Below are positions 13,718 to 33,801 of a stretch of DNA of 64,000 bases, piece by piece (within the stretch, counting starts at the first letter, position 1; every line of letters begins with the position of its first letter). The notes beneath the pieces were generated by a model. That model had not been told where the DNA came from. It did no database searches and saw only the letters and a program-made list of their open reading frames with translations. The stretch comes from Streptacidiphilus albus JL83. GTDB lineage: Bacteria > Actinomycetota > Actinomycetes > Streptomycetales > Streptomycetaceae. The position numbers and the translations under genes were made by a program. Where the stretch lies: contig NZ_JQML01000001.1 in the NCBI RefSeq assembly GCF_000744705.1, forward strand, positions 1,488,001 through 1,552,000. The letters are read 5' to 3'.

Positions 13718-13731
13718 TCCGGACGGTCCGG

Positions 13732-16982: not shown

Positions 16983-17014
16983 CTTCTTCTCCCTCTCCTC
17001 GCTCGGTTGCCGGC

Positions 17015-17482: not shown

Positions 17483-17532
17483 GGTTCAAGCCCCTACTTC
17501 CCCCGGCTGGTCAGCCCGGCGTTCGGATCCGG

Positions 17533-18273: not shown

Positions 18274-18363
18274 GTCTGCTCTCCCCACGTGGAGTTGTCT
18301 GCGCGGCATTCGATCCGGTAGCCGCGAGTTCGATTTGAGCATGGCGCGGAGCGTCGATCGAGA

Positions 18364-18383
18364 GCGACGGGGAATTCCCCGTC
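18364..18383. promoter_or_regulatory. Perfect 20-bp palindrome between the nucleotidyltransferase and DJ-1 copy A
   Basis: CGACGGGGAATTCCCCGTCG is exactly self-complementary. It lies 104 bp after the nucleotidyltransferase stop and about 90 bp upstream of DJ-1 copy A. It could be an operator of the DJ-1/hydroxylase operon or a terminator hairpin (8-bp stem, AATT loop). Confidence 0.5.
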
Positions 18384-18487
18384 GAGTTAGTCACTTGCAT
18401 TGACCGGAAGACCTCCGACCGGCCCTTGACCAGCGTCCGAATAACACCGGCGAGAATGTCAAGAGCACCTACGGGGCCGTCCGGCGG

Positions 18488-19819
18488 TCACAGCCAGCGC
18501 ATCAGGTCGCCGACGCCCGCCAGGCTCGCGCCCACCGGGATCCGGGCGTTCTCGGCCAGTCGGAGCCCCGGGAACGCGTGGACCCCGCGCAGCCGGGTGC
18601 CGGCCGGCACCCGCACCTCGTCGCCCAGCGCGCAGTACTCGCTGAGCACCACCGGCCGTTCGAGCGTCGAGCGGACGTCCACCATGCAGCCCAGGAAGAC
18701 GTCGGTGAGCCGGGCCCCGGGGCCGATCACCCCGTGGTCGCCGCAGGAGACCCCGCGCAGGGTGCAGCCCTCGCCCAGGTCGACGCCGTCGCCGATGTCC
18801 GACTCGACCAGGGTCACCGCCGGACCGATCTCCACGTCCCGGCCGATCCGGACGCCGGGGCCGATCCGGACGCTGCCGTCGCTGATCTTGTCCGCCAGGG
18901 TCCGGCCGCTGATCGGGTCCTTCATCTCCAGGCTGCTCTCGTGGATCCGCAGCCCGGCCACCGACCCGACCGGCGGGTCGATCCCGGCGCTGAGCAGCGG
19001 GTAACGGTCCAGCAGCACGTCCTTGAGGGTGTCCAGATAACCGGCCGGATGGCCGAGGTCGCCGAATCTGGCGATGGGCTGGGCCAGCACCTGGTAGCCG
19101 TTGGCCACCAGGTACGGCAGCAGGTCGTTGCCCCAGTCGAGCCTGGTCCGCGCCAGCGCCGCCAGGGCCGGGTCGCCGGCGGCCATCCGCAGCCGCTGAC
19201 AGTCGATCAGATACATGCCGGTGCTGGTGTGCAGCAGGTCGGCCGAGCCGGGACCGGCCGCCGCCGCCAGCGCGAGCGCCGCCGCCGGGGCGGGCTTCTC
19301 CACGAAGCGGCGGACCATCCCGTCGCCCTCCACGTCCAGCACCCCGTAGGTGTCGGCCGCCTCCAGCGCCGGTCGCATCACCGTCGCCACGCTCACGTCG
19401 GCGCCGGCCGCCCGGTGCGCCCGGACCAGCTCCGACAGGTCGAAGTCGAAGACCGAGTCGGTGGGCACGACCAGCGCCAGCCCCTCCAGGTCCCAGTAGT
19501 CGAGGGCGCACAGGGTGGCCTGGCCGCTGCCGGTGTTGTCCTGGTCGAACCGCGAGCGGGAGTAACGGACCGTCACGCCCCAGCGTTCGCCGTGGCCCAG
19601 CACCTCCTTGATCTGGACCCGGTTCTCGCGCCCGTTGGCCACCACGTAGTAGTCCTGGACCCCCAGCCCGCGCAGCGCGGTCACCGCCCACTCGATCAGC
19701 GGTCGGCCGGCCAGCGACACCGTCGCCTTGCTCCTGAGATAGTCGCCGGAATTGAGCGTCAGCGGCCTGGCGCGAATTCCCCGGCCACCTGCCAGGGCAA
19801 TTGTCGAGACTTCTTCCAT
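18488..19819 (-). CDS. Sugar-1-phosphate nucleotidyltransferase with left-handed beta-helix tail
   Basis: 443 residues. The N-terminal nucleotidyltransferase fold is shown by IALAGGRGIRARPLTL, and the C-terminal third has hexapeptide repeats (IGPGVRIGRDVEIGPAV). This resembles GlgC, RmlA/GalU-like and mannose-1-phosphate transferases. The usual lysine after the signature (KPMVP or similar) reads SKATVSLAG. It would make an NDP-sugar; the base and sugar are unknown. Lying downstream of the ParA-like ATPase and partner-switch genes, it may supply nucleotide sugar to the neighbouring glucan enzymes. It is the last gene of the long run that starts at 33467. Confidence 0.8.
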   Translation of the reverse strand: MEEVSTIALAGGRGIRARPLTLNSGDYLRSKATVSLAGRPLIEWAVTALRGLGVQDYYVVANGRENRVQIKEVLGHGERWGVTVRYSRSRFDQDNTGSGQATLCALDYWDLEGLALVVPTDSVFDFDLSELVRAHRAAGADVSVATVMRPALEAADTYGVLDVEGDGMVRRFVEKPAPAAALALAAAAGPGSADLLHTSTGMYLIDCQRLRMAAGDPALAALARTRLDWGNDLLPYLVANGYQVLAQPIARFGDLGHPAGYLDTLKDVLLDRYPLLSAGIDPPVGSVAGLRIHESSLEMKDPISGRTLADKISDGSVRIGPGVRIGRDVEIGPAVTLVESDIGDGVDLGEGCTLRGVSCGDHGVIGPGARLTDVFLGCMVDVRSTLERPVVLSEYCALGDEVRVPAGTRLRGVHAFPGLRLAENARIPVGASLAGVGDLMRWL

Positions 19820-19843
19820 TTCATCCCCCGTCCAAGATCGGGA

Positions 19844-20566
19844 CTAGTCGAGGAGCACGTCGATCAACTGTCGGAAGTCCGCGACCATCGAATGCCGGGG
19901 GCGGGCTTCGAAAAGAATTTTCTCGCCGTCGAGCTGCGCTATTTCCGGGGCGTAGGGCAGCAGGACGGCCGGCGCTCCGTACAGCCGCTCGGCCCGGCGT
20001 CGGGCGAGCTCCGCGTCGACGTTCCCCGATGACATGTTGATCACCACGGAGCGGCGGCACTCCAGTCTCCGGGCCAGGGCGACGGTCTCCTCGGCCCCGG
20101 CCAGCTCGGCCAGCTCCGCCCGGACGACCGTGACCAGCACGTCGGCACAGGCGATGGCGGTCATCGTCTCGTTGTTGGGCCCGGTGTGGGTGTCGAGCAG
20201 CAGCGTGTCCAGACCGTAGGCGGAGACGAGCCGGTTGAAGCCCTCCGGGAGCAGGCCCACGTCGTACCCGGTGAACATGATCTCCCCCAGCGGACAGGAC
20301 TGGTTCAGGGCCGGGACCAGCCTCAGCCCGGTACTGCTCACCACGTGCGCGGCCGACTCGATGTCGCATCGCCCCAGCAGGTAGTCGCCCAGGCAGTCGG
20401 CACGCGGGCCGAGGCCGAACATGCCGTCCAGCGCCGGGGACTGGAGGTCGGTGTCGACCATGGCCACCCGGCCGCCGGCCTGGGACAGCAGCACGGCCAG
20501 ATTGGCCAGCACGGTCGACTTTCCGGTACCGCCGCGATGCGAGTGGAAGACGACGGTCTGCGCCAT
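19844..20566 (-). CDS. ParA/MinD-family deviant Walker ATPase
   Basis: 240 residues. The deviant Walker A motif (HRGGTGKSTVLANLAVLL) with its signature lysine and the VDTDLQSP switch define the SIMIBI ParA/MinD class. It has no long N-terminal receiver domain and no visible C-terminal amphipathic helix, so membrane binding is uncertain. There is no ParB or chromosome-type parS nearby. The ATG follows the phosphatase stop directly (20567), so they are one transcription unit. It could position or switch the partner proteins encoded upstream, as MinD/CpaE-like ATPases do. Confidence 0.85.
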   Translation of the reverse strand: MAQTVVFHSHRGGTGKSTVLANLAVLLSQAGGRVAMVDTDLQSPALDGMFGLGPRADCLGDYLLGRCDIESAAHVVSSTGLRLVPALNQSCPLGEIMFTGYDVGLLPEGFNRLVSAYGLDTLLLDTHTGPNNETMTAIACADVLVTVVRAELAELAGAEETVALARRLECRRSVVINMSSGNVDAELARRRAERLYGAPAVLLPYAPEIAQLDGEKILFEARPRHSMVADFRQLIDVLLD

Positions 20567-21787
20567 TCAGGCCACCGCCGCGTGCTTGCGGTGCAGGGCC
20601 ATCATGGTGACGTCGTCGTGCTGGTCGGCCGGACCGGTGTGCGCGAGCACCGCCCGGTCCACCCGGTCGATCAGTGCCCGGCCGTCCGCCGCGGGCTCGG
20701 ACAGCAGCGCCAGCATCCGCTCCTCGCCCAGGAACTCGCCGTCCGTGTTCCGGGCCTCGGACACGCCGTCGGTGTACATGAACAGGGTGTCACCCGGTTC
20801 CATCTGGGCGTACCCGAGCGTGAAGACCCCGTCGGCCAGCACCCCGACGGCGGGTCCGGTGACCTCCAGGGCGGACAGTTCCCCGGTCCGGCGGGTGATC
20901 AGTTGGGGCGGGTTGTGGCCGCCGTTGATGTAGACCAGGCTGCCGGTGGCAGGGTCGAGCACGCAGAAGAACAGGGTGGCGAAGTAGCCCTGGCGCAGGT
21001 GGTTCCGGGTCAGGTAGCCGTTGGTGCTCAGGACCGCGTTCATCATCGGCGTGGCCCCGACCACGGGCAGGGTGCCGATCGGATCCGGTCCCCCGGCGAC
21101 CAGGTGCTGCAAGCCGCTGTGCTCGGCCGCGTGCCGCAGCAGGCTCCGGATCAGCGCCATGAACAGCGCCGCGCCCACGCCCTTGTCGCAGACGTCGGCC
21201 ACCACCAGGGCGAGCCGGCGCCGGTGCGCCACCTCGAACACGTCGTAGAAGTCCCCGGCGACCTGCCGGGCCGGCCGGAAGCTGACGCCGATGTCCCAGC
21301 CCGCGGGCGTGGGCAGCTCCTCCGGCAGGAACCCCGCCTGGATCTGCCGGCCGATGGCCAGTTCCCGCTCGTTGCTGAGCCGGTCGGCCCGGGCATGGGC
21401 CTCGCTCAGGCTCTGGCTGAAGTCGGCCCGCTCCGAGCAGCTGTGCAGCCGCGAGTGCACCAGGGCCGGCAGGAACGGCGGCACCAGGAAGTCGTGGCCG
21501 ACCCGGACGTGCGCCTCCAGCTCTGCGAAGTCCTCCTCCGTGTAGACCACGACGATCGGGTTGCTGCCCGGACCTGCCAGACGCCGTGCGGCTGCCGCGA
21601 CCGAGGCCGGCTCGACCCTGGCGGAGGCGAGCAGCACGTCGGTCTGCGGCAGTGCCGAAGGCGGTCGCGAGAGCAGTTCGAGCAGGCCCAGTTCGGAGAT
21701 GGTCACCTCGTCCGACTCCAGCGCTCGTAACAGGTTGGCCGGTGGAGAAGAGGGCTCAATGAGAATCAGGATCGCGATTCCTGACAT
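20567..21787 (-). CDS. PP2C/SpoIIE-type serine phosphatase with a degenerate receiver-like N-terminus
   Basis: 406 residues. GGAGGAGG precedes the ATG. Residues 1-120 resemble a receiver fold without a clear acidic pocket. The PPM/SpoIIE catalytic domain follows, with metal-binding motifs VAGDFYDV, VADVCDKGVG, GGHNPP, YTDGVSEAR and DDVTM. Such phosphatases dephosphorylate STAS anti-anti-sigma factors. Two STAS genes (22240 and 24720) and an RsbW-like kinase (21813) are in the same operon, giving a complete partner-switching set without an adjacent sigma factor. Confidence 0.9.
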   Translation of the reverse strand: MSGIAILILIEPSSPPANLLRALESDEVTISELGLLELLSRPPSALPQTDVLLASARVEPASVAAAARRLAGPGSNPIVVVYTEEDFAELEAHVRVGHDFLVPPFLPALVHSRLHSCSERADFSQSLSEAHARADRLSNERELAIGRQIQAGFLPEELPTPAGWDIGVSFRPARQVAGDFYDVFEVAHRRRLALVVADVCDKGVGAALFMALIRSLLRHAAEHSGLQHLVAGGPDPIGTLPVVGATPMMNAVLSTNGYLTRNHLRQGYFATLFFCVLDPATGSLVYINGGHNPPQLITRRTGELSALEVTGPAVGVLADGVFTLGYAQMEPGDTLFMYTDGVSEARNTDGEFLGEERMLALLSEPAADGRALIDRVDRAVLAHTGPADQHDDVTMMALHRKHAAVA

Positions 21788-21812
21788 GTGGGATCCTCCT
21801 CCATATTGCCTA

Positions 21813-22229
21813 TCAGCGACGGACTGTCAGGATGCTGACGTTCCGTCCGGTGTCACAGGCGTAACTGAACTCGTCGAGACTGCTGAGGGCGAGGTAGATG
21901 CCGAGGCCGCCGATCGGGCGGGCCTCCGGCGGCACGGTCGGGTCGGGTGGCCGCATCCGGGTCCGCGGGTCGAAGAGCGGGGCCTGGTCCTCCAGTCGGA
22001 TCCAGACCCGGTCGTGCTCCACCCCGCCGGACACGGTGATCGTCCCGGCTTCCTCCCGGTATCCGTAGGTCACGGTGTTGGTGGCCAGTTCGTCCACCGC
22101 CAGGCGGAGACGGTAGCCGACCTGGTCCGGCAGTACTGCGAGCCGGGCCAGGTCGACCACGAAGCACTTGATCTCCTCCAGGCCCGTGAACGAAGCGGGC
22201 ACCCGCAGCACGGATGCCCCCTCGGTCAT
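21813..22229 (-). CDS. RsbW-like anti-sigma/serine kinase (GHKL ATPase)
   Basis: 138 residues. The GHKL fold is shown by the N-box VDELATNTVTYGY, DQAPLFDP and the G-rich IGGLGIYLALSSLDE. Single-domain proteins of this kind bind a target (often a sigma factor) and phosphorylate a STAS antagonist. The STAS gene lies 10 bp upstream and the phosphatase 25 bp downstream, the expected order of a partner-switch module. The target is not visible in this window. Confidence 0.88.
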   Translation of the reverse strand: MTEGASVLRVPASFTGLEEIKCFVVDLARLAVLPDQVGYRLRLAVDELATNTVTYGYREEAGTITVSGGVEHDRVWIRLEDQAPLFDPRTRMRPPDPTVPPEARPIGGLGIYLALSSLDEFSYACDTGRNVSILTVRR

Positions 22230-22239
22230 CGCGGCCGAC

Positions 22240-22551
22240 TCAGCAGTCGATGAGCGTGCAGCTGCGGTCCAGGCCGGCCGCGCGGATGATCCGGGCCACC
22301 GGAGCCGCCGCGCCGACCACCCGGATCTCCACCTCCTCGCCCATCTTCTGCCGGGCGAAGACCAGCGAGCGCAGCCCGGCGCTGGCCATGTAGGTGAGCC
22401 CGGTCATCCGGATCTCCACCGTGGCCAGGCCGCGCGAGGCGGCCTTCTCGATGGTCTCGTGGAAGTCACCGGCCGTGGTGGCGTCGAGCTCGCCCACCAG
22501 CTCGATGATGGAGGTGTCCGCGGTGTTGCTGAACGAGAGAGTGAGGGGCAT
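22240..22551 (-). CDS. STAS-domain anti-sigma factor antagonist, copy 1
   Basis: 103 residues, a single STAS domain. The phosphorylatable serine is Ser57 in TYMASAGLRSLV, at the position of the DSSG serine of SpoIIAA-type antagonists. It is the likely substrate of the RsbW-like kinase (21813) and PP2C phosphatase (20567). It begins 45 bp after glgX and is followed closely by the kinase gene. Confidence 0.88.
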   Translation of the reverse strand: MPLTLSFSNTADTSIIELVGELDATTAGDFHETIEKAASRGLATVEIRMTGLTYMASAGLRSLVFARQKMGEEVEIRVVGAAAPVARIIRAAGLDRSCTLIDC

Positions 22552-22596
22552 GGTCTTGTCCTTCCGAGTTGTCGCTTGCCTTGCGGGGCGTGCGGT

Positions 22597-24723
22597 TCAG
22601 GGCCGCACCGGGCGCCGGCCGACCAGGACCACCACCGAGCGCGGTCCGATCCGGTAGCTGGAGGGATCCTCCAACTCGGGTTCCCTGCCCACCTGGTGGA
22701 GGTCGTGCGGGGCCGGCGCGAAGGTGTCCACGGCGATGTGCCAGACCATGCCGCCCGGCAGCTGCGGCAGGTTCAGCGTCTGCGCCTCCCAGTGCGCGTT
22801 CATCGCCGTGTAGACGCAGTCGCTGTCGCCCAGGCCGCTGCGCAGCACGGCCAGCAGCCTGCTGTCCGCGGACCAGTCCGGGTTGCCGACCTCGGTGCCG
22901 TGCCAGCTGACGTCGGGCAGCTGGTCCCCCTCGGGGGTGCTGCCGTCGGGGTGGCCGGAGGACCGGAGGACCATGTGCGCGGACCTGAAGGCGATCAGCC
23001 CGCGGGTGAAGTCCAGCAGTTCGGCGTTGCTCTCGGCCAGGCCCCAGTCCACCCAGGACAGTTCGTTGTCCTGGCAGTAGGTGTTGTTGTTGCCCTGCTG
23101 GGTGCGGCCGAACTCGTCGCCCGACAGCATCATCGGCACGCCCTGGCTGGTGAACAGGATGGCCAGGGCGTTCTTCATCTGCCGCCGGCGCAGCGCGTTC
23201 ACCTCGGGGTCGTCGGTCGGCCCCTCGACGCCGCAGTTCCAGCTGTTGTTGTCGTTGGCGCCGTCGTTGTTGCCCTCGCCGTTGGCCTCGTTGTGCTTGT
23301 CGTTGTAGCTGACCATGTCGGCGAGGGTGAAGCCGTCGTGCGCGGTCAGGAAGTTGATCGAGGCGGTGGCGCCCCGGCCGGCGTAGAGGTCGGGCGAGCC
23401 GACCACCCGGGCGGCCAGCTCGGTCACCGTGCCGGAGTCCCCCTTGAGGAAGCGCCGCACCGTGTCCCGGTACTTGCCGTTCCACTCGGACCAGCGGCCG
23501 TAGGCCGGGAACCGGCCAACCTCGTACAGGCCCGCCGCGTCCCAGGCCTCCGCGATCAGCTTGCACTCGCGCAGCACCGGGTCGAAGGCCAGCAGCTCCA
23601 GCAGCGGCGGGTTGGGGATCGGGGTGCCGTCCTCGTCCCGGCTGAGGATGGCCGCCAGGTCGAAGCGGAAGCCGTCCACGTGGAAGTCGGCGACCCAGTG
23701 CCGCAGACAGGAGAGCACGAACTCGCGCACCACCGGGTGGTTGCAGTTGACCGTGTTCCCGGTCCCGCTGAAGTTGTAGTAGTAGCCCTCGGGCGTGAGC
23801 ATGTAGTAGGTGGCGTTGTCCAGCCCCCGGAAGGAGATGGTCGGGCCCAGCTCGTTGCCCTCGGCCGTGTGGTTGAAGACCACGTCCAGCACCACCTCGA
23901 TGCCGGCCGCGTGCAGGTCCTTCACCAGGGTGCGGAACTCGTCGGACTGCATCCCCCAGCGCCCGGTGGCCGCGTAGCCCGCCTTCGGCGCCATGAACGA
24001 CAGGGTGTTGTAGCCCCAGAAGTTGTACAGCTGCTCACCGGTGTCCGGGTTGGTGCGGGAGTTGTCGCACTCGTCGAACTCGAAGATCGGCATCAGCTCC
24101 ACGCAGTTGACGCCGAGCTGCCTGAGGTAGGGGATCTTCTCGCGCAGGCCGGCGAAGGTGCCGGGGGCGAGGGTGCCGGAGGACGGGCTCTGGGTGAAGC
24201 CGCGGACGTGGGCCTCGTACACCACCAGGTCCTCGGTGGGGATCCGGGGCGGGGTGTCGGTGCCCCAGTCGAAGTCGTCGAGGCCCACCCGGGACCGGTA
24301 CTGGTAGCCGTCGTTCCAGTCGGGGACCTTGCCCCAGACGTCCCGCCCGGAGACGATCCGGGCGTACGGGTCGCTCAGCACCCGGCGCGGGTCGAAGCGG
24401 TGCCCCCGGGTCGGCTCGAACGGGCCGTCGGCGCGGAAGCCGTACTCGATGTTGTCGTGGTCCAGGCCGAACACGGTCATCGAGAAGATCGCGCCGGTGC
24501 GGAACTCGTCCGGGTACTCCAACTCGGCGTAGGGCTCGGAGTCGCCGCGCTTGAAGAGCACCACGCTCATCGCGGTGGCCTGGTTCGAGTACACCGCGAA
24601 GTTCACCCCGCCGGGGACCAGGGTGGCCCCCAGCGGGAACGGACGGCCGACCCTGACGCCGAACCCGGAGATCTGGTGGGTCGGGTAGGAGTCGATCCGG
24701 TGGATGCTCCGGGCGCCGGTCAC
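22597..24723 (-). CDS. glgX: Glycogen debranching enzyme GlgX
   Basis: 708 residues, normal length. It hydrolyses alpha-1,6 branches of glycogen. A CBM48 domain (GATLVPGGVNFAVYS) precedes the GH13_11 barrel with VVYEAHVRGFT, DVVFNHTAEG, DGFRFDLAA (nucleophile near 352), LIAEAWD (Glu near 390) and LTAHDGFTLAD. The GTG start overlaps the stop of an upstream STAS gene as GTGA, an unusual coupling between a catabolic glucan enzyme and a signalling protein. A second STAS gene follows. It complements GlgE/GlgB encoded 9 kb downstream. Confidence 0.94.
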   Translation of the reverse strand: MTGARSIHRIDSYPTHQISGFGVRVGRPFPLGATLVPGGVNFAVYSNQATAMSVVLFKRGDSEPYAELEYPDEFRTGAIFSMTVFGLDHDNIEYGFRADGPFEPTRGHRFDPRRVLSDPYARIVSGRDVWGKVPDWNDGYQYRSRVGLDDFDWGTDTPPRIPTEDLVVYEAHVRGFTQSPSSGTLAPGTFAGLREKIPYLRQLGVNCVELMPIFEFDECDNSRTNPDTGEQLYNFWGYNTLSFMAPKAGYAATGRWGMQSDEFRTLVKDLHAAGIEVVLDVVFNHTAEGNELGPTISFRGLDNATYYMLTPEGYYYNFSGTGNTVNCNHPVVREFVLSCLRHWVADFHVDGFRFDLAAILSRDEDGTPIPNPPLLELLAFDPVLRECKLIAEAWDAAGLYEVGRFPAYGRWSEWNGKYRDTVRRFLKGDSGTVTELAARVVGSPDLYAGRGATASINFLTAHDGFTLADMVSYNDKHNEANGEGNNDGANDNNSWNCGVEGPTDDPEVNALRRRQMKNALAILFTSQGVPMMLSGDEFGRTQQGNNNTYCQDNELSWVDWGLAESNAELLDFTRGLIAFRSAHMVLRSSGHPDGSTPEGDQLPDVSWHGTEVGNPDWSADSRLLAVLRSGLGDSDCVYTAMNAHWEAQTLNLPQLPGGMVWHIAVDTFAPAPHDLHQVGREPELEDPSSYRIGPRSVVVLVGRRPVRP

Positions 24724-25055
24724 CGCAGCACCCGGGCGGGGTCGCTCGGCCCGTCGGACTCGAAGAAGTCCAGGAACCCGGTGACCGACATGACGAACCG
24801 GAGCTCGTCGCTCAGCCCGCTCAGCCGCACCGAGGTCCCGCCGTGCTGGGCCTCCCGGTAGAGCACCAGCAGGGTGCGCAGGCCGGCGCTGGAGACGTAG
24901 CCGACCGCGTACAGGTCCACGACCAGCGGGTTGCCCTCGGCGACCAGCGGCAGCAGCTGGTCCAGCAGCCCCTCCGAGGTCGAGCTGTTGATCTCGCCGC
25001 CCAGCTCCACGATGGTGCCGCTGGTGCCGCGGCGGACGGTGACTTCGAGGCTCAT
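24720..25055 (-). CDS. STAS-domain protein, copy 2
   Basis: 111 residues, single STAS domain with the serine motif GYVSSAGLRTLL. ATG at 25055 overlaps the preceding stop as ATGA, and the 3' end overlaps glgX as GTGA. It is more like the copy at 22240 than like canonical SpoIIAA. Two antagonists with one kinase could allow branching or competition in the partner switch. Confidence 0.88.
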   Translation of the reverse strand: MSLEVTVRRGTSGTIVELGGEINSSTSEGLLDQLLPLVAEGNPLVVDLYAVGYVSSAGLRTLLVLYREAQHGGTSVRLSGLSDELRFVMSVTGFLDFFESDGPSDPARVLR

Positions 25056-26890
25056 CGCTCCGCACCCGCCTTCGGCACCGGCCGCAGCCGCACCTTGACC
25101 GAGACCCGCTCGTCGCCCTCGGGCAGCCGGACCGTCAGCGCGGTGGCGTCGAAGTCCGTGTGGTCCTTGCCGTCGATCTCGACCGAGGCCAGCTCGACCG
25201 CGCCGGCCGGCAGCAGGTCGGGCGAGACCCGCAGGGTCCGCTCCGGCAGGGCGTTGGGCGTGGGCTTGAAGTAGAAGTCCATCTCCCGGCCGTTGAGCAG
25301 CAGGTTGTTGTAGACCGCGGCCAGGTAGCAGAGCTCGGCCGAGTGGTACATGCTCATCGAGTGGCTGCCCTTGAGCCGCTCCGTGCCCAGCAGGTACGGC
25401 ATGCCGTCCGCCAGCACGTTGAAGTAGACGGCGCCCTCGTCGTGGTCCAGGAAGAAGGTGTTGTAGAAGGACTCCGCCTGCCGGGCCTCGCGCTGGTACT
25501 CGGTACCGCCCACCACGCCGCCCAGGATCAGGTAGGCCAGGATCGCCTGCTCCTGCTGCCACCAGGCCTTGCGGTCGTGCCAGGCGAAGCGGTGGTAGTC
25601 CTCGCCGTCGCGCTTGATCCGCTCCACCACGTCGTACCAGCCGCCGCGCTGCCGGTCGCTGCCGGCCGCGGGCATCAGCGCGGCGATCTTGGTGGCCAGC
25701 TCCTGGTACTCGGCCTTGGGACGCAGCGAGTTCATCCGCATCAGGTTCCAGGCGATCTTCAGGTTGTGGCCGACCACCGCGCGGTTCTGCTGCCAGCCGT
25801 GGGTGGTGTCGTGGGACCAGTCGCGGTGGAAGCGCTCCTGGACGAAGGGGCTGGTCTTGTAGTCCGGGAACCGCTCGACGATGGTGTCGAAGGTGGTCTC
25901 CAGGAAGTCCGCGTACTTCTCGTCGCCGGTGGCCAGGTACAGGTTGACCAGGTAGGCGGGCGCGTGGTCGCCGACCGAGTTCCAGTTCTTCCGCTCGCGG
26001 TTCTCGCCCAGGGTGTCGTGGTCCGCCCGGAACAGGATCGGGTCGACGTGGGAGTAGTAGCCGCCCTGCTCGGCGTCGTGGAAGAACTTCTCGAACAGCC
26101 GGATGGTCGCGTCCGCGTCGCCCTTGATCGCCGGGTCGCCGGTGATCCGGTAGGTCTGGATCGGGCCGGCCAGGGCGTAGATCTGCTCGTACATCGGGAT
26201 GGCGTCGTAGTCGTCGGAGAACTCCGAGGTGAACAGCTTGCGCTCGCTGTCACCGTCGATCTTGATGCCGTGGTACCAGTAGACGACGTCGTCCTCGTTG
26301 TCGACCACCCGCATGTGCTTGCGCAGGTACTCGGTGCCGCGCTCGGCGACCTCCAGGTACTCGTCCTTCCCGGTCAGCAGGTAGGCCGAGGCCATCCCGT
26401 AGACCAGCCGGGAGATGGTGTCGGTCTCCTGGACGTGGCTGTCGGTCTTCTCGCCGCCCAGCCGGATCTCGGTCCGGTACTCGTCGAAGTCCACCACGCC
26501 CTCCGGGAACTGGGCCCGGCGGTAGAAGTCGGCCAGCGACTCGATCTGGTTGACCCACCAGCCCCCCTCCTCGAAGCGGTAGTCCTCGGCCTGCCGGCCG
26601 GTGAACACCAGCCGCTTGGCCTCGCAGTGCACCTGGTCGCCCTTGGGGTAGAAGACCCCGCCGACGAAGAGGAAGCGCCCCGGCGAGAGCATCTCGTCGA
26701 TGTGCGCGGAGGCGTCGGTGTACGGCTCGTCGAGGTTGCGCAGCAGTTCGGCGCTGGGGTCGCCGGCCAGCGACACCGTGAAGCGGCGGTCGTCGGCGGT
26801 GCGCACCCGCAGGATCCGGGCGTCCGAGTCGAAGTGCTCGACGTAGCCGGCGAGGGTGTCGGAGAACGTGAAGTTCGCTGAATCAGTCAT
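25052..26890 (-). CDS. (Alpha/alpha)6-barrel protein related to the N-acylglucosamine 2-epimerase family
   Basis: 612 residues. After a 100-residue beta-rich N-terminus there is a long helical barrel with AGE-like features (THGWQQNRAVVGHNLK, AWNLMRMNSL, WWQQEQAILAYLILGG, YHSAELCYL). AGE-family and related barrels isomerise or hydrolyse sugars. The extra N- and C-terminal regions are not typical of AGE epimerases. AAGGAG precedes the ATG, and both ends overlap neighbours by ATGA. A sugar or oligosaccharide substrate is inferred from fold and context; the reaction is unknown. Confidence 0.7.
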   Translation of the reverse strand: MTDSANFTFSDTLAGYVEHFDSDARILRVRTADDRRFTVSLAGDPSAELLRNLDEPYTDASAHIDEMLSPGRFLFVGGVFYPKGDQVHCEAKRLVFTGRQAEDYRFEEGGWWVNQIESLADFYRRAQFPEGVVDFDEYRTEIRLGGEKTDSHVQETDTISRLVYGMASAYLLTGKDEYLEVAERGTEYLRKHMRVVDNEDDVVYWYHGIKIDGDSERKLFTSEFSDDYDAIPMYEQIYALAGPIQTYRITGDPAIKGDADATIRLFEKFFHDAEQGGYYSHVDPILFRADHDTLGENRERKNWNSVGDHAPAYLVNLYLATGDEKYADFLETTFDTIVERFPDYKTSPFVQERFHRDWSHDTTHGWQQNRAVVGHNLKIAWNLMRMNSLRPKAEYQELATKIAALMPAAGSDRQRGGWYDVVERIKRDGEDYHRFAWHDRKAWWQQEQAILAYLILGGVVGGTEYQREARQAESFYNTFFLDHDEGAVYFNVLADGMPYLLGTERLKGSHSMSMYHSAELCYLAAVYNNLLLNGREMDFYFKPTPNALPERTLRVSPDLLPAGAVELASVEIDGKDHTDFDATALTVRLPEGDERVSVKVRLRPVPKAGAER

Positions 26891-27354
26891 GACCCACTCC
26901 TTCGGTCGCTGTCTCTGTGCTGCCCGCGGTTCTGCGTTGCTGTGGTTCCCTGCGGTTCGTCGTCCACGAAGCCCTGGCTCACCTCGACGATCACGCCGTC
27001 CGGGTCGCGCAACCAGACGGTGCGCCAGCCGCAGATGAAGTCGTCGAAGCCCAGCGGCCCCAGGGTCACCTCGGCCGCCCCGCCCATGGCGGCCAGGAAC
27101 CCGTCCACGTCGTCGGTCTGGAACGCCAGGTGGCGCATCCGGCCCGGCTCGGCCGGGCCGTCGTGGTCGGCGGTCTGCGACGCGGCCTGCTCGGCCGCGA
27201 AGAGCTCCAGGTAGGCCTCGCCCCGGCGCAGGAAGATGATCGAGGAGTCCCCGAGGTCGACCACCCGGGCCCGGCTGAAGCCGAACCAGCGGGTGTAGAA
27301 GTCCTCGGTCGCCTTCTGGTCGAGGCAGTTGAGGCCCACGTGCGACCAGCGCAT
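26887..27354 (-). CDS. VOC-superfamily (glyoxalase/bleomycin-resistance-like) protein
   Basis: 155 residues. WSHVGLNCLDQKATEDFY, the central MRHLAFQTDDVDGF and the final LRDPDGVIVEV mark paired beta-alpha-beta-beta-beta modules of the vicinal oxygen chelate fold. Candidate metal ligands His6, a central His and the Glu in VIVEVSQ are present. Members are glyoxalases, dioxygenases or epimerases. The start overlaps the DJ-1 stop (TGATG) and the end overlaps the barrel gene. With three DJ-1 proteins nearby, dicarbonyl handling is plausible. Confidence 0.82.
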   Translation of the reverse strand: MRWSHVGLNCLDQKATEDFYTRWFGFSRARVVDLGDSSIIFLRRGEAYLELFAAEQAASQTADHDGPAEPGRMRHLAFQTDDVDGFLAAMGGAAEVTLGPLGFDDFICGWRTVWLRDPDGVIVEVSQGFVDDEPQGTTATQNRGQHRDSDRRSGS

Positions 27355-27968
27355 CAGGACTCCCCCCGGGCCGCGCGCTCGGTCAGGACGGTGATCAGCC
27401 GGCGGGCGAACAGGTGGTGGTGCGCGCCGGTGCGCCCGGTGACCAGGTCGCCGCCGTCCACCACCACGTCCTCGTCGACGTACTCGGCGCCCATGTTCCT
27501 GATGTCGCCGATGAGGTTGTTGTGGCAGACCACCTTGCGGCCGCGCACCTCCTCCGGGATCGAGGCCGCCAGCCACATGCCGTGGCAGATGATGCCCTTG
27601 ACCACCGAGGGCTCGGCGAAGGCGCGCTGCAGCAGCGCGGTGGCCGGGGCCAGCCGGTCCACGTCCTCGGTGTAGCGCAGCCGGTCGGCCACCATGCCGG
27701 AGGGCACGATCAGCGCCGCGTAGCCGCGCAACTCGTCGTCGGACAGCCCCTCCAGGCCGCGGTCGACCTCGAACGGGGCCCGGTACTCGTGCCCGCTGAA
27801 GGTGATCCGCTCCTGGCCCCAGAGCCGGGTGAGGAACTCCACCCGGGCGCCCTCCTCGGCGAAGCGGTGCTGGTAGTAGAAGATCTCCGGCTCGTAGTAG
27901 TCGCTCTCCATCAGGACGGCGATCCGCTTGCCGGACAGCGGGCCCGGCTTCAGCACGGCCTCAGACAC
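27354..27968 (-). CDS. DJ-1/PfpI superfamily protein, copy B
   Basis: 204 residues. The nucleophile elbow is GIICHGMWLAAS, preceded by a conserved Glu in LMESDYYEPE. Its CHGMW context is typical of PfpI-type proteins. It starts 8 bp inside the GMC oxidoreductase 3' end and ends on the VOC start, so translation is tightly coupled. Likely activity is deglycase, glyoxalase III or amidase-like; substrate unknown. Confidence 0.85.
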   Translation of the reverse strand: MSEAVLKPGPLSGKRIAVLMESDYYEPEIFYYQHRFAEEGARVEFLTRLWGQERITFSGHEYRAPFEVDRGLEGLSDDELRGYAALIVPSGMVADRLRYTEDVDRLAPATALLQRAFAEPSVVKGIICHGMWLAASIPEEVRGRKVVCHNNLIGDIRNMGAEYVDEDVVVDGGDLVTGRTGAHHHLFARRLITVLTERAARGES

Positions 27969-29559
27969 GGGACTCCCCCTTGATCAGATCGGCTGCCCGC
28001 TCCGCGATCATCACGATGGCGGCGTGGCAGTTGCCGGAGGGCACGGCCGGCATCACGCTGGCGTCGACCACCCGCAGCCCGTTCACCTGGTGCACCCTCA
28101 GTTCCGGGTCCACCACGGACAGGTCGTCCACGCCCATCCGGCAGGAGCCGGCCTGGTGGTGGTAGCTCTCCGCGTGGTCGCGGACGAAGTCGCGCAGGGC
28201 GGCGTCGCCGACCACGTCGGGCCCCGGCTGCAGCTCCTGCTTGTACCAGGGCGAGAACGCCGAGGTGGCGAAGATCTCCCGGGCCAGCTTCACGCCCTGG
28301 ACCATCCGCTCCAGGTCCCAGCTGTCGCCGAGGTAGTTCGGGTTGATCAGCGGCGCCGACCTCGGGTTGCCGTCCGCCAGCCGGATCCAGCCCCGGGAGA
28401 CCGGGCGGACCACCCCGGGCAGAATGCTCACCGTGTTGGGGTGGTTCTGGCCCACGATCACGTCGAACGGCACGTGGACGAAGGCGATCTGCAGGTCGGG
28501 AGCGGGCAGTCCGGGCCGGGAGGCGAGGAACAGCGCGCTCTCCGAGAGGTTCTGGTGCGGCGGCGGGAGCTCCTGGCGGACCTCGGCCATCAGCCCGGTC
28601 AGCACGTGGTTGTGGAAGTTCTCGCCGACGCCGGGCACCGCCGCCCGCACCGGGATGTCGAACTTCCGCAGCTGGTCCGGGGCCCCGATGCCGGAGAGCA
28701 GCAGCAGCTTGGGCGACTCGATGGCGCCGGCCGCCAGGATCACCTCGCGCCTGGCCCGCACCTGGTAGGTGCCGGCCGGGTCGCTGCTGCCGAAGCTGTC
28801 GGCGACCACCCGACCGGGCACGCCGGTCGGCTGCGCCGACTGCTGGTACTCGACCCCGACACAGGTGTCGCCGTCGAACAGCAGCCTGGAGGCCTGGGCG
28901 GCGGTGCGCAGGGTGAGGTTGGCCCGGTCCAGGGCCGGCTCCAGGTAGGAGACCAGCGAGCCCCGGCGCTGTCCGTCGGCCACGTCGATGTGGTGCCAGC
29001 CGGCGCCGAACAGTCCGCGCCGGGGCCCGTAGGTGTTGAAGTCCGTGATCTCCTGGTGGCCGAGCTCGACCGCGGCGTCGATGAACGCCCGCGAGGTCGG
29101 GTTGGGCTGGTGCAGACCGGCGTTGGTGATCCGCTGGGGACCCGCGGTGCCGGTGGTGGCGGCGGTCGCGTCCTCCTGCGACTCCATCAGCGCGAAGTAG
29201 GGCAGCACGTCCGCGTAGGACCAGCCGGCCGCGCCCTGGTAGGCCCAGTTGTCGAAGTCGGAGGCGTGGCCGCGGATGTGCATCATGATGTAGAGGTTGC
29301 TGCTGCCGCCCGGGGCCTTGCCGCGCGGCTCGTAGGTGCTCCGGCCCCCCAGGCCGGGCTGCGGGACGCTGGTGTAGCCCCAGTCGATCGGGCCGCCCAG
29401 CAGCTTGTACCAGGACGACGGGTCGTCCACCTCCGGCGGGATCCGGTCGCCGCCGGCCTCCAGCACCAGCACGGTGGTCCGCGGGTCCTCGCTCAGCCGG
29501 TTGGCCAGCACGCTTCCGGCGGCTCCCGAACCGACGACGATGTAGTCGTACTCCTTCAC
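27961..29559 (-). CDS. GMC-family FAD-dependent oxidoreductase
   Basis: 532 residues; GTG start with a perfect AGGAGGT 5 bp upstream. The ADP-binding motif (VVGSGAAGSVLANRL), GMC signature 1 (GKAPGGSSNLYIMMH) and signature 2 (GAIESPKLLLLSGIG) are present. The catalytic base is His in SYHHQAGSCRMG. The second catalytic position, usually N or H, reads GNCHAAI, giving a His-His pair. GMC enzymes oxidise alcohols such as choline, sugars or aryl alcohols, forming aldehydes or lactones and often H2O2. It could feed aldehyde to the molybdenum hydroxylase encoded downstream. Confidence 0.9.
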   Translation of the reverse strand: MKEYDYIVVGSGAAGSVLANRLSEDPRTTVLVLEAGGDRIPPEVDDPSSWYKLLGGPIDWGYTSVPQPGLGGRSTYEPRGKAPGGSSNLYIMMHIRGHASDFDNWAYQGAAGWSYADVLPYFALMESQEDATAATTGTAGPQRITNAGLHQPNPTSRAFIDAAVELGHQEITDFNTYGPRRGLFGAGWHHIDVADGQRRGSLVSYLEPALDRANLTLRTAAQASRLLFDGDTCVGVEYQQSAQPTGVPGRVVADSFGSSDPAGTYQVRARREVILAAGAIESPKLLLLSGIGAPDQLRKFDIPVRAAVPGVGENFHNHVLTGLMAEVRQELPPPHQNLSESALFLASRPGLPAPDLQIAFVHVPFDVIVGQNHPNTVSILPGVVRPVSRGWIRLADGNPRSAPLINPNYLGDSWDLERMVQGVKLAREIFATSAFSPWYKQELQPGPDVVGDAALRDFVRDHAESYHHQAGSCRMGVDDLSVVDPELRVHQVNGLRVVDASVMPAVPSGNCHAAIVMIAERAADLIKGESRV

Positions 29560-29588
29560 CGATACCTCCTCGCTCGGACAGCGGCGGA

Positions 29589-29960
29589 TCAGACCTGGGA
29601 GAGCACCTGGAAGGGCATGGTGTCGTGGTAGTTGGCCATGTAGGCGATGCGCCCGTCGACGATCCGGAAGTAGTTCATGACCTCGGCCGTGACCGGCTTC
29701 CCGGTGACGCTCTCGGCGACCAGGTGGGAGACGGCCGCGGCGTGCTCGCCGTCCACCAGGAAGCGCACCGGCTGGTTCTGGAAGACCCGGTACATCTTGT
29801 CCATCCCGGCCATCATGGTGCGCAGCGTGGCCAGGCCCTCGATGTGGCCGGCCAGCTGCTCGTCCATCACCATGTCCTCGGTGAAGAGGTCGCACCAGCG
29901 GTCCCAGTCGCCCTCGTTCGCGTACTCGTAGTACTTGGTGAGCACCTCGTGTGCGTTCAT
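29589..29960 (-). CDS. SnoaL-like (NTF2-fold) protein 1
   Basis: 123 residues, one cone-shaped NTF2-fold domain: a helical start (MNAHEVLTKYYEYANEGDW) followed by a curved sheet ending FRIVDGRIAYMANYHD. AGGGAG precedes the ATG. SnoaL-like proteins include cyclases, isomerases, hydrolases and binding proteins. It is the third of three consecutive paralogues, lying 29 bp before the GMC gene. Confidence 0.8.
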   Translation of the reverse strand: MNAHEVLTKYYEYANEGDWDRWCDLFTEDMVMDEQLAGHIEGLATLRTMMAGMDKMYRVFQNQPVRFLVDGEHAAAVSHLVAESVTGKPVTAEVMNYFRIVDGRIAYMANYHDTMPFQVLSQV

Positions 29961-29993
29961 CGCTGTCTCCCTGCTCGTGACTGGATATCGGTG

Positions 29994-30449
29994 CTAGAGG
30001 CTGTCGCGGATGCCGCCGGGCCGGAACGGGGCCCAGAACTGGCTGAAGGCGGTCGCGTCGTCGCCGAAGAGGCCGTCGTGGCCTTCGACGATCCGGCCGT
30101 CGCGCCAGCGCATGAAGTGGAAGACGGTGGAGTCCAGGCGCTCGTACGGCGAGGTGCTGTCCTCCGGCGCACCGGCCCGCAGCCCGTAGTTGTGGCAGAC
30201 GTCGGCGGAGCAGTCGTCGCCGACCATGATCAGCTCGCGGTCCATCCGGAACGACCCGCCGCTCAGCTTGCCGGCCGTGGCCATCATCTCCAGGAAGGCG
30301 TCGAGGCTCTCGTACCAGCCCGCCAGCGGGTGGTTGCCGGGCACCAGCCAGCGCAGGTCCTCGGCGTAGTGCTCGATGATCTTGCTGCGGTCGCCGCTGC
30401 CCAGGGCCCGGTAGGCGGCCTCGACCTGGGATCGCGTCACTTCGGTCAT
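29994..30449 (-). CDS. SnoaL-like (NTF2-fold) protein 2
   Basis: 151 residues. VEAAYRALGSGDRSKIIEHY opens the NTF2 fold and HFMRWRDGRIVEGHD closes it. The family often uses an Asp/His pair in the cavity; Asp and His residues occur here but the catalytic set cannot be assigned by eye. Part of a row of three such genes between the ThDP decarboxylase and the GMC oxidoreductase. Confidence 0.8.
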   Translation of the reverse strand: MTEVTRSQVEAAYRALGSGDRSKIIEHYAEDLRWLVPGNHPLAGWYESLDAFLEMMATAGKLSGGSFRMDRELIMVGDDCSADVCHNYGLRAGAPEDSTSPYERLDSTVFHFMRWRDGRIVEGHDGLFGDDATAFSQFWAPFRPGGIRDSL

Positions 30450-30487
30450 GGTGTGGATTCCCTTCGGTGGCTACAGCACCTCGATGA

Positions 30488-30922
30488 CTACAGCGCGGCC
30501 GAACCGGGCATCGGGTCGAGGGCGTTGACGGCGTAGCGGCGGATCAGCGGGCCGTTCGGGCCGGCCACCACGGTCCAGGTCTGGTCGGCGTCGAAGCCCA
30601 GCCACTGGCTCTTCTCGGCCGGCGGGTTCCAGATCCGCGCCTGCCAGTTCACCACCACCCGGACGGTGGCCTCGCCGTCCGCCCAGACCGGCTCGACCTT
30701 GGTGACCGTGTGCACCTCGTCGAAGAAGCGGTTGGTCACCGCCTCGTACCAGCGGGCGAAGCCGGTGTGGCCGACGAAGGTGTCCTCGGGCACCTTGAAC
30801 TCGATCTCCTCATGCAGGAGTTCGAGCACCTGGGGCAGCGGGACGTGGCGGTCCAGAGCCACGTACCAGTTGACGGCGAACTCGTGGATCGACGCATCGG
30901 TCAGCGGCGGCGTTTCGGTCAT
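30488..30922 (-). CDS. SnoaL-like (NTF2-fold) protein 3
   Basis: 144 residues, start with GGGAGG upstream. NWYVALDRHVPLPQVLELL, FKVPEDTFVGHTGFARWYEA and a C-terminal sheet fit the NTF2 fold. First of the three SnoaL-like genes, 75 bp after the ThDP enzyme. Three dissimilar copies side by side suggest a hetero-oligomer or successive steps on related intermediates rather than recent duplication. Confidence 0.8.
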   Translation of the reverse strand: MTETPPLTDASIHEFAVNWYVALDRHVPLPQVLELLHEEIEFKVPEDTFVGHTGFARWYEAVTNRFFDEVHTVTKVEPVWADGEATVRVVVNWQARIWNPPAEKSQWLGFDADQTWTVVAGPNGPLIRRYAVNALDPMPGSAAL

Positions 30923-30997
30923 GGGGACCTCCCTCGGACGGGGTCGGCCGCACGGGTGAGCGGCGGCCGACCGATTCGGCGAAAGCGACTGGTCTGT

Positions 30998-32638
30998 TCA
31001 GATCTGGACGTCGACCAGGAACGGGCCCCGGTGGTCGAGCAGCTGGTCCGCGGCGGCGGCGGCCTCGCCCGGCTTCTCCACCCGTACTCCCTGCGCCCCC
31101 AGCGCCCGGGCCAGGCCCGCGAAGTCGATCTCCGGGGTGGACAGGTCGAAGGAGTTGGGGAAGTTGTGGGCGGGAATGCCGCGCTCGCGCCAGTACTGGT
31201 CGATGTTGTCGTCCAGCAGGCGGTACTTCCGGTTGTTGCAGACCACGAACTTGGCGTCCACGCCGTGGCGCACCGCGGTCCACAGCGCCTGGTACGTGTA
31301 CATCGAGCCGCCGTCCCCGGCGAAGCCGACGACCTCCCGGTCCGGCCGGGCCAGCTTGGCGCCGACGGCGCCGGGCAGGCCCACACCCAGCGAACCGCCC
31401 CGAGTGAGGTGGTAGTCGCCCGGCCGCTCCGGCGGGAGGTACCGGGTCACCAGCGGGGAGCTGGTCAGCGCCTCGTCGAAGACCACCAGGTCGCCACCGG
31501 TGCGGGTGGCCAGCCGGTGCAGGAACAGCTCCAGGTTCCCGGCGTCGGGCCCGGGGACGGCCGCCGCCTCGGCGTTCCGCTGCTCGGTCCGCTCGGCCAG
31601 CCGGTACTCCGCCGCCCGGCGCTGCTTCGGGTCCATCCGCTGGAGCAGCCCGCCGGCCAGGGCGGCCAGGGTCGCCCTGGGGTCGGCCGCGATGCCCAGG
31701 TCCACCGGGTGGTTCTTGGCGATCTCATAGGTGTTGAGGTCGATGTGGACGATCTTGGCGCCGACCCGGAACGGCGAGGCCAGATTGGGGAAGACCTCGG
31801 GAAAGACGTAGGTGCCGACGATCAGCACCGCGTCGGCGCCGGCGACCAGCTCCGTGCTGTGCTCGCCGAACATGTGCCCGGTCATGCCGCGCCGCAGCGG
31901 GTGCGAGGCGGGCAGGTTGACCTCGGAGGCGTCCACCTCCCACACGTCGGCGCCCAGCAGCTCGGCCACCCGCGCCAGTTCGCGCTGGGCACCGGCCAGG
32001 CTGACCCCGTCGCCCACCAGGATGACCGGGTTGGCCGCCCCGGCCAGCAGCTCGACGGCCGCCCCCACCGCCGAGGGCGCGGGCAGGCTGTCGGTCCTGG
32101 GCACGACCGTGGGCAGCACCGACTCGTGGTTGACCGCGTCCAGGACGTCCATCGGCAGCGCCACGAACACCGGGCCGCGCGGGGGCGTCAGGGCGATCTT
32201 GACCGCCCGGCGCACGGTGCGGAGCAGCGACTGCGGGTCGGTGACCCGGGTCGCGTACTTGGTCACCGGGCGGGCCATGGCCACCAGGTCGGCGGCCATC
32301 TGGGCGTCCATCGCGTCGTAGCGCACCCCGGCGTCGCCGGCGACCACGACCAGCGGGGTGTGGCCGCGCATCGACTGGTAGAGCATGCCGATGCCATTGC
32401 CGAGACCGACCCCGGAGTGCAATTGCAGCAGCGCCGCTCCGCCGGAGGCGCGGGCGTAGCCGTCCGCGATCCCGGCGGCCACCGTCTCCTGCAGCGAGAG
32501 GATGTAGTGGAACTCCGGGTCCTGGTCCGCCGCATCCAGGAACCCCTGTTCGACCGTGCCCGGATTTCCGAACATCCGATCGAGCCCATCGGCCCTGAAT
32601 TGTTCGATCAGCTTGAATTTTCCGGCAGCTGAGGTCAC
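30998..32638 (-). CDS. ThDP-dependent decarboxylase/carboligase, benzoylformate decarboxylase-like
   Basis: 546 residues, three-domain ThDP enzyme. The N-terminal FGNPGTVEQGF, the cofactor-activating Glu51 in LSLQETVAAG and His74 in LLQLHSGVG follow the benzoylformate decarboxylase pattern (its Ser26 position is Thr28 here). The C-terminal ThDP motif is GFAGDGGSMYTYQAL ending in CNN. It should decarboxylate a 2-oxoacid to an aldehyde or ligate two carbonyls. Start GTG at 32638 is 4 bp after DJ-1 copy C. The product aldehyde could pass to the molybdenum hydroxylase. Confidence 0.88.
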   Translation of the reverse strand: MTSAAGKFKLIEQFRADGLDRMFGNPGTVEQGFLDAADQDPEFHYILSLQETVAAGIADGYARASGGAALLQLHSGVGLGNGIGMLYQSMRGHTPLVVVAGDAGVRYDAMDAQMAADLVAMARPVTKYATRVTDPQSLLRTVRRAVKIALTPPRGPVFVALPMDVLDAVNHESVLPTVVPRTDSLPAPSAVGAAVELLAGAANPVILVGDGVSLAGAQRELARVAELLGADVWEVDASEVNLPASHPLRRGMTGHMFGEHSTELVAGADAVLIVGTYVFPEVFPNLASPFRVGAKIVHIDLNTYEIAKNHPVDLGIAADPRATLAALAGGLLQRMDPKQRRAAEYRLAERTEQRNAEAAAVPGPDAGNLELFLHRLATRTGGDLVVFDEALTSSPLVTRYLPPERPGDYHLTRGGSLGVGLPGAVGAKLARPDREVVGFAGDGGSMYTYQALWTAVRHGVDAKFVVCNNRKYRLLDDNIDQYWRERGIPAHNFPNSFDLSTPEIDFAGLARALGAQGVRVEKPGEAAAAADQLLDHRGPFLVDVQI

Positions 32639-32642
32639 GGAT

Positions 32643-33467
32643 TCACCAGCCGTACCGGATAAGACCGTCTTCCAGGACCGCGACTACCTTCTCGCCCGTA
32701 CGATAGGAGTCGGGCGTCGAACGGCCCGTGACGAACGGATAGTCCACGATCACCGAGACCGGCTTGCCGAAATTCCCGTGGTACGCGCCGTCGGGGCCGG
32801 TGGCATCGCGCAGGATGTACTCCAGCGGGTACGGCGGCGGGCCCATGACGAAGTCCGTGCCGAGGAATCCGGTGCCGTCCTTGTAGTCGTACTCCTTGCA
32901 GTGCCCGGTCACGTGCTTGCCCCAGATGATGCTCCTGCGGTCGCTCCAGTCCCGCGCGAAGGCCAGGCAGGCGACCCCGTAGCACTCGGCCGCCACCACC
33001 TTGTCGGCCCGCAGGAAGGAGAGGATCAGCCCGTGCACCCGCTCGTTGTTGGCGAGGTCGACGATCGGACCGCTGCCGCCCACGATCAGCAGCGCGTCGT
33101 AGTCCGCGATCTCGGCGTCGATCTGCTCCAGGTCCCGGTGGTACTGCTCCAGGGCCGGCAGGTAGCCGGCGTCGCTGGTGTACGGGCGCTCCGGCAGCCA
33201 GGAGCTCAGGTCCAGCGGTGCGTCGAGCCGGCCGGAGGCGTCGAACTCGCGTCCCAGGCGGGCGTTCTCCGCGCTGGTGACCGAGCGGCCCAGCGGCGGG
33301 TCGATGTAGTCGGGGTCCAAGCTGGGCGGCAGCGCGTGCGCCCGCTTTCCGGTGGGCGTGGCGAAGGTGACCTCGTAGCCACGTGCGTCGAACTGGGAGA
33401 CCGGGCCGATCATTTCCTCGGCCCAGTAGCCGTGCTCCGAAACCAAGACCAGAATCTTCTTGCTCAT
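32643..33467 (-). CDS. DJ-1/PfpI superfamily protein, copy C
   Basis: 274 residues from the ATG at 33467, chosen for GGGAGG 8 bp upstream and the typical MSKKILVLVSEHGYWAEE start; longer in-frame starts run into the leader. The Cys lies in AAECYGVACLAF, a different elbow from copies A and B. The length and inserted middle resemble the larger PfpI/ThiJ proteins. It opens the long - strand operon and is divergent from the receiver/reductase fusion across a 315-bp region. Confidence 0.83.
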   Translation of the reverse strand: MSKKILVLVSEHGYWAEEMIGPVSQFDARGYEVTFATPTGKRAHALPPSLDPDYIDPPLGRSVTSAENARLGREFDASGRLDAPLDLSSWLPERPYTSDAGYLPALEQYHRDLEQIDAEIADYDALLIVGGSGPIVDLANNERVHGLILSFLRADKVVAAECYGVACLAFARDWSDRRSIIWGKHVTGHCKEYDYKDGTGFLGTDFVMGPPPYPLEYILRDATGPDGAYHGNFGKPVSVIVDYPFVTGRSTPDSYRTGEKVVAVLEDGLIRYGW

Positions 33468-33723: not shown

Positions 33724-33801
33724 ATGAATACGCTGAACTCAGCGTTGCCGCGCCGGGACTCGGGGCCCAACGAGGAGGCTGCATGCGCCGGGGAGCGGTA
33801 G
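33724..33801 (+). CDS. Possible 25-residue leader peptide overlapping the reductase start
   Basis: An ATG with GAGGA about 8 bp upstream opens a 25-codon frame that ends 18 bp inside the receiver/reductase gene in another frame. Its small size and overlap would fit translational coupling, but chance is equally likely. No homology is recognisable. Confidence 0.2.
   Translation: MNTLNSALPRRDSGPNEEAACAGER

Follow-up and report, generated by a model that had tools for sequence, protein, structure and literature searches.

An icfG-type partner-switch cluster with glucan and carbonyl-oxidation genes in a non-photosynthetic actinobacterium

Gene content of the cluster

The window analysed here is a stretch of 64,000 nucleotides from Streptacidiphilus albus JL83 (G000:C1:1488001-1552000), which lies inside the single-contig genome (9.9 Mb) of this soil actinobacterium. 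It contains a cluster of 23 genes on the minus strand, running from 33467 to 7875, in which genes for glucan metabolism and for carbonyl oxidation are combined with a partner switch of STAS, RsbW-like and PP2C proteins. The core of the cluster is orthologous to the icfG cluster of the cyanobacterium Synechocystis. A sequence-only reading had described 16 genes from 33467 to 18488. All 16 were found in the order it gave, with a coding type of codon composition, gaps of at most 75 bp and, by their coordinates, overlaps of 1-8 bp at several junctions, and all of the families it named are backed by Pfam and NCBIfam matches. Its end point was too early, as the run continues to 7875 with seven more genes and wider gaps of 214 bp ahead of the third DJ-1 gene and 162 bp ahead of glgE. 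A scan of 7000-26000 for promoters and terminators returned 0 promoter-like sites and 6 terminator-like sites (3.5 expected).

The cluster opens with DJ1a (32643-33467), a ThiJ/PfpI-like protein (Pfam PF17124/PF01965) with an invariant Cys162 in conserved alignment columns, which adjoins the next gene in nearly all loci. That gene encodes a thiamine diphosphate (ThDP)-dependent, benzoylformate-decarboxylase-like enzyme (30998-32638) whose orthologs are 52-86% identical. It is under every NCBIfam equivalog cut-off, reaching 307 bits against the 493 set for benzoylformate decarboxylase. Three SnoaL-like proteins matched by Pfam and conserved in position (30488-30922, 29994-30449 and 29589-29960) are followed by a GMC flavoprotein oxidoreductase resembling choline/alcohol oxidases (27961-29559; Pfam and NCBIfam), by DJ1b (27354-27968), a DJ-1/PfpI protein with an invariant Cys128-His129 that holds the slr1854 position of icfG clusters, and by a VOC/glyoxalase-fold protein (26887-27354; Pfam). 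The next gene, in the position of Slr1855, encodes an AGE-fold protein resembling sugar epimerases and isomerases (25052-26890). Its structural model (predicted local distance difference test score, pLDDT, 90.5) carries an extra N-terminal beta domain and matches glucose 2-epimerase, cellobiose 2-epimerase and mannose isomerase at E values of 1e-18 to 1e-15 and about 15-20% identity.

The partner-switch genes enclose a gene for a GlgX/isoamylase of the icfG lineage (22597-24723; Slr1857 position), which scores 698 bits against TIGR02100, over its cut-off. On either side lie the genes for two proteins resembling anti-sigma antagonists, STAS1 (24720-25055; Slr1856 position) and STAS2 (22240-22551; Slr1859 position). 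The phosphorylatable serine of STAS1, Ser56, is present in 96 of 96 alignment rows, and at the corresponding site of STAS2, Ser57, 81 of 92 rows have Ser and another 10 have Thr. The RsbW/SpoIIAB-like serine kinase (21813-22229; HATPase_c_2, Pfam PF13581; Slr1861 position) has a catalytic Glu and a GGxG motif that are invariant across the alignment, as are the catalytic positions of the SpoIIE-type PP2C phosphatase (20567-21787; Slr1860/IcfG position). In the structural model the N-terminus of the phosphatase forms a receiver-like alpha/beta domain, followed by a coiled coil. Because a residue other than Asp ends the third strand of the receiver-like domain (DVLLASA in the window), this domain probably takes no phosphate. 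In Chloroflexota and cyanobacterial rows the N-terminal part cannot be aligned to that of the window, and the input signal of the phosphatase is therefore probably different in different lineages. A MinD/ParA-like P-loop ATPase (19844-20566) follows the phosphatase here, as it does in Trueperaceae and in the majority of actinobacterial loci. A sugar-1-phosphate nucleotidyltransferase with hexapeptide repeats (18488-19819; NTP_transferase) recurs close to the cluster in relatives.

The extension beyond 18488 begins with DJ1c, a third DJ-1 family protein (17533-18273) that is kept in relatives. Family matches, also made in relatives, identify a molybdenum hydroxylase of the xanthine/aldehyde/CO dehydrogenase family, with [2Fe-2S] (17015-17482), molybdopterin (14589-16982) and FAD (13732-14592) subunits. 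GlgE (11566-13569), of the maltose-1-phosphate maltosyltransferase family (PF11896, PF21702), is likewise kept in relatives, and GlgB (9650-11569), of the 1,4-alpha-glucan branching enzyme family, matches its family there as well. The last gene encodes a sensor kinase-like fusion of cyclic nucleotide monophosphate (cNMP)-binding, HATPase and SnoaL domains (7875-9653).

Relationship to the icfG cluster of Synechocystis

The icfG cluster of Synechocystis PCC 6803 comprises slr1852-slr1862 (PMC12329169, PMC8670252, which cite Beuf 1994 and Shi, Bischoff and Kennelly 1999). It encodes a carboxymuconolactone decarboxylase (CMD), Slr1853 (PMC3564720), and an N-acetylglucosamine 2-epimerase, Slr1855, together with the anti-sigma antagonist Slr1856, GlgX and IcfG (PMC8670252). 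In PMC12329169 slr1857 is given as the isoamylase gene, slr1856 and slr1859 as the antagonist genes, slr1860 as the phosphatase gene and slr1861 as the kinase gene. The same paper states that Slr1861 phosphorylates Slr1856 and Slr1859, that IcfG dephosphorylates Slr1856 and not Slr1859, and that icfG mutants fail to grow on glucose when inorganic carbon is low. Slr1861, together with Ssr1600, has anti-SigC activity (PMC12329169).

One locus recovered in this analysis (L151) has the order CMD, DJ-1, AGE, STAS, GlgX, STAS, PP2C, RsbW, and this order and these families are those reported for Synechocystis slr1853-slr1861. In its RsbW protein, 17 of the 19 residues published for Slr1861 recur under identical numbering. 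The GlgX of the window shares 60-62% identity with its counterparts in cyanobacterial icfG clusters, against 41-43% with the other two GlgX proteins encoded in the same genome. Because of the match in order and residues, and because GlgX is nearer to cyanobacterial icfG than to its own paralogs, the core of the cluster is, by sequence comparison, orthologous to the icfG cluster and not merely similar in kind. The coupling of a debranching enzyme to anti-sigma antagonists, which the sequence-only reading had called unusual, is already known from the Synechocystis icfG cluster (PMC12329169, PMC8670252).

Conservation and co-inheritance

When the ThDP enzyme was used to query 84,980 species genomes, 80 loci were returned; the nearest named orthologs come from Streptomyces. 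The full order DJ1a-ThDP-Sno1-Sno2-Sno3-GMC-DJ1b-VOC-AGE-STAS1-GlgX-STAS2-RsbW-PP2C is present in about 25 loci of Streptomyces and Sphaerisporangium, and each protein is 53-85% identical. All 23 genes occur in the same order in a congener (G012), and in Sphaerisporangium the order is kept through GlgB, as far as that stretch was read. Because the first 14 genes are collinear in relatives and the extension is collinear in the congener and Sphaerisporangium, the arrangement is far beyond chance. Shorter forms occur in Actinoplanes, Nonomuraea, Saccharothrix, Kutzneria and Microbispora, and versions of the cluster are also found in a Trueperaceae metagenome-assembled genome (MAG; L070), in Acetivibrio (L072) and in an Anaerolineae MAG (L068/L135, one contig). 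The cyanobacterium G584 has the order DJ1a-ThDP-SnoaL-Sno1-SnoaL-[2Fe-2S]-MoCo, then FAD-DJ1b-VOC-AGE-STAS1-GlgX-STAS2-RsbW-PP2C. The core AGE-STAS-GlgX-STAS-RsbW-PP2C with an upstream DJ-1 gene is collinear in the window, cyanobacteria, Chloroflexota, Trueperaceae and Acetivibrio, and the placing of GlgX between STAS1 and STAS2 is common to actinobacteria, cyanobacteria, Chloroflexota, Deinococcota and Bacillota. Apparent deviations in order in four loci (L025, L124, L151 and L152) are artefacts of overlapping start choices rather than rearrangements. Relatives were checked for unrelated arrangements of these genes, and the order proved to be conserved. Further glucan enzymes recur beside the cluster in relatives, namely GlgE, maltokinase, TreS, MalQ, GDE and MGH1-like proteins. 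In the AGE tree the copy of Sphaerisporangium melleum (L023) nests among Streptomyces copies, which suggests lateral transfer or a mislabelled assembly.

The oxidation module and the glucan-switch core are inherited together. With matches accepted at E values up to 1e-100 for AGE and up to 1e-140 for the ThDP ortholog, each is present in 6 of 297 actinobacterial genomes, and the six genomes are identical. The naive probability of this coincidence is 1e-12, which is uncorrected for kinship, the six genomes representing four genera. Within the actinobacterial sample, the window's own family is represented mainly by one large genus (g9) with genomes of 6-11 Mb. In cyanobacteria the ThDP enzyme is found in 5 and AGE in 17 of 244 genomes, and all five genomes with the ThDP enzyme have AGE (naive probability 9e-7). 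AGE lies on the same contig as the ThDP gene, within about 30 kb, in 25 of the 26 ThDP genomes inspected. These counts and the collinearity in relatives rule out a chance arrangement, and the association of glucan and carbonyl-oxidation genes with a STAS/RsbW/PP2C partner switch, as first read from the sequence, is real. Pairwise distances are correlated between the ThDP enzyme and AGE (Spearman 0.78), AGE and GlgX (0.83) and AGE and PP2C (0.80).

In 12 of the 17 AGE-bearing cyanobacterial genomes the icfG core occurs without the ThDP module. These genomes have DJ1b-AGE-STAS1-GlgX-STAS2, mostly with RsbW and PP2C, and still carry DJ-1, CMD, EthD, VOC or SnoaL domains upstream. A cyanobacterial protein of 1052 amino acids encoded upstream of an icfG core (L149:2438-5596, plus strand) combines CMD, two EthD, VOC and two SnoaL domains in one chain, a parallel to the small proteins that the actinobacterial cluster encodes separately.

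Proposed function and alternatives

The cluster is best explained as an icfG-type partner-switch phosphorelay set in an alpha-glucan operon and enlarged by a carbonyl/alcohol-oxidation module (probability roughly 0.78). The glucan part consists of GlgX, the AGE-fold sugar isomerase, GlgE, GlgB and the sugar nucleotidyltransferase, and the oxidation part of the DJ-1 proteins, the ThDP enzyme, the GMC oxidase, the SnoaL and VOC proteins and the molybdenum hydroxylase. The proposal starts from what is established at the locus, which is its gene content and order, its icfG orthology, the intact predicted catalytic and phosphorylation sites and the co-inheritance of both modules; substrates, fluxes, the signal and the partner that receives the output are all inferred. 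Because it is orthologous to the Synechocystis switch, the switch of the window should sense the carbon/energy state and control glucan turnover. When carbon is ample, the kinase would phosphorylate STAS1 and STAS2. A signal at the receiver-like domain of the phosphatase would lead to dephosphorylation of the STAS proteins, which would then capture the kinase. The partner that the kinase thereby releases is most likely a sigma factor of the SigB/F type whose gene lies elsewhere. Expression or activity of the glucan-mobilising and oxidising enzymes would shift, and stored glucan and its carbonyl by-products could then be burned or detoxified.

Several points weigh against this proposal. A family search of the locus found no sigma factor gene in the cluster. 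The nearest gene of the SigB/F/G family (G000:C1:1486465-1487136) is on the strand of the cluster, 865 bases left of the window start and about 8.7 kb past the cluster end, and no equivalent gene lies near the cluster in the congener or in two Streptomyces. SigC, the published output, is a cyanobacterial group 2 sigma factor. The joining of oxidation to glucan turnover is suggested by gene linkage only, and shared species history explains part of the distance correlation. Finally, a literature search confined to open-licence papers found no study of any actinobacterial member. A remote sigma factor is nevertheless kept as the default output partner.

The lack of a sigma gene also bears on a different possibility, namely that the STAS proteins, in one of their phosphorylation states, bind GlgX (or the AGE-fold enzyme) and alter its activity, with no sigma factor involved. 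STAS partner switches that work without sigma factors are known from other bacteria, the alternation of STAS and GlgX genes is kept across five phyla, and in a Nostoc-type variant GlgX-AGE-STAS occur with no RsbW or PP2C match beside them. Nevertheless, STAS-GlgX binding is a prediction, the gene order may mirror co-expression, and Slr1861 is an anti-SigC factor with Ssr1600 (PMC12329169). Direct control of the enzymes is rather unlikely.

Another explanation treats the icfG glucan switch and the carbonyl/aromatic oxidation pathway as functionally separate, joined only because a mobile or horizontally moved island carries both. The spread of the cluster is patchy (about 2% of actinobacterial genomes), and both the cyanobacterial icfG cores without the ThDP module and the position of the Sphaerisporangium copy fit such an island. 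However, the ThDP module is nearly always near AGE, the modules are interleaved, with DJ1b and VOC abutting AGE, and even the cyanobacterial clusters without ThDP keep DJ-1, CMD, EthD, VOC or SnoaL domains upstream, so that independent co-travel is unlikely. A cross-phylum metabolic switch, in which STAS proteins would directly control both the debranching enzyme and the AGE-fold isomerase without a sigma factor and couple glucan release to the ThDP/GMC/DJ-1 carbonyl pathway, is distinctly unlikely; if it were true, the Synechocystis icfG cluster would be a reduced form. An ordinary SigB-type stress operon with the glucan and oxidation genes as mere regulon members is highly improbable, since despite the RsbV/RsbW/RsbU-like trio there is no sigma gene within the cluster, which rules out a canonical SigB operon, GlgX is flanked by two STAS genes and the orthology is to the icfG lineage and not to sigB operons. 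A scytonemin-type ThDP cluster and a Nostoc desiccation cluster were also considered and set aside, as neither the literature nor the gene content favours them.

Significance

The coupling of glucan debranching to a partner switch is known already from Synechocystis. The literature search found no description of icfG-type clusters in actinobacteria, Chloroflexota, Deinococcota or Bacillota (weak evidence, given its scope), none of an icfG core linked to a DJ-1/ThDP/SnoaL/GMC/VOC module and none of an icfG-GlgE junction. Work on the role of cyanobacterial icfG in carbon balance goes back to 1994 but has yielded no clear target. Because the orthologous core occurs in non-photosynthetic actinobacteria, Chloroflexota, Deinococcota and Bacillota, icfG is tied specifically neither to photosynthesis nor to inorganic carbon, and its spread suggests that glucan turnover is what the clusters have in common. 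The actinobacterial hosts offer a genetically workable heterotroph for locating the output of the switch. The module that constantly accompanies the core, DJ-1/ThDP/SnoaL/GMC/VOC, represents a pathway not described before and a strong guilt-by-association lead.

Neighbouring genes

The divergent neighbour of the cluster (33783-35366, plus strand), a receiver domain fused to a thioredoxin-reductase-like flavoprotein, is conserved beside it. Relatives of the cNMP-HATPase-SnoaL protein adjoin this type of fusion in Nostoc-type clusters, which suggests that the two form an unusual two-component pair. A gene for a zinc finger of the ubiquitin-hydrolase type (zf-UBP; L001:8628-8855, minus strand) lies between the cluster and the receiver-thioredoxin-reductase gene in many loci (family f14, 30 loci). 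To the left of the cluster are two TMEM175-type potassium channel genes (3607-4347, plus strand, and 7138-7776, minus strand) with an XdhC-type maturation factor for molybdenum enzymes between them (5977-7122), and a gene for a protein in which a bacterial globin is joined to a divergent 4Fe-4S domain and two CDGSH iron-binding zinc-finger domains (1740-3578, plus strand). A GTP cyclohydrolase II fused to a NADAR domain is encoded at 36405-37484 on the plus strand.

Comparison with known systems

The ThDP enzyme is similar over its full length to the benzoylformate decarboxylase family and keeps the catalytic Glu and the active-site His-Ser stretch, but it forms a distinct lineage. As in the actinobacterial GlgE pathway, GlgE and GlgB are encoded side by side, here directly downstream in the cluster, whereas the usual pathway has no partner switch. 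Maltokinase and TreS had no match in the window and are present in the clusters of some relatives (L030, L036 and L058). The kinase, phospho-Ser STAS proteins and PP2C phosphatase resemble the RsbU-RsbV-RsbW and SpoIIAA-SpoIIAB systems, but the window has two STAS genes and no cognate sigma gene, and its switch is set in a metabolic operon.

The closest known system is the icfG cluster. The window has its hallmarks, an RsbW-like kinase with intact ATP-binding motifs, two STAS proteins with a phosphorylatable Ser, a PP2C phosphatase with catalytic Asp, a GlgX of icfG lineage whose gene the STAS genes flank, and AGE-fold and DJ-1 genes upstream, and the order of the shared genes is nearly the same. 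The window differs in that its host is non-photosynthetic, its kinase gene precedes the phosphatase gene, its PP2C protein has a receiver-like N-terminus and it lacks the CMD gene (slr1853). To the icfG core it adds the DJ1a-ThDP-SnoaL-GMC-VOC module, the MinD-like ATPase, the nucleotidyltransferase, the molybdenum hydroxylase, GlgE and GlgB.

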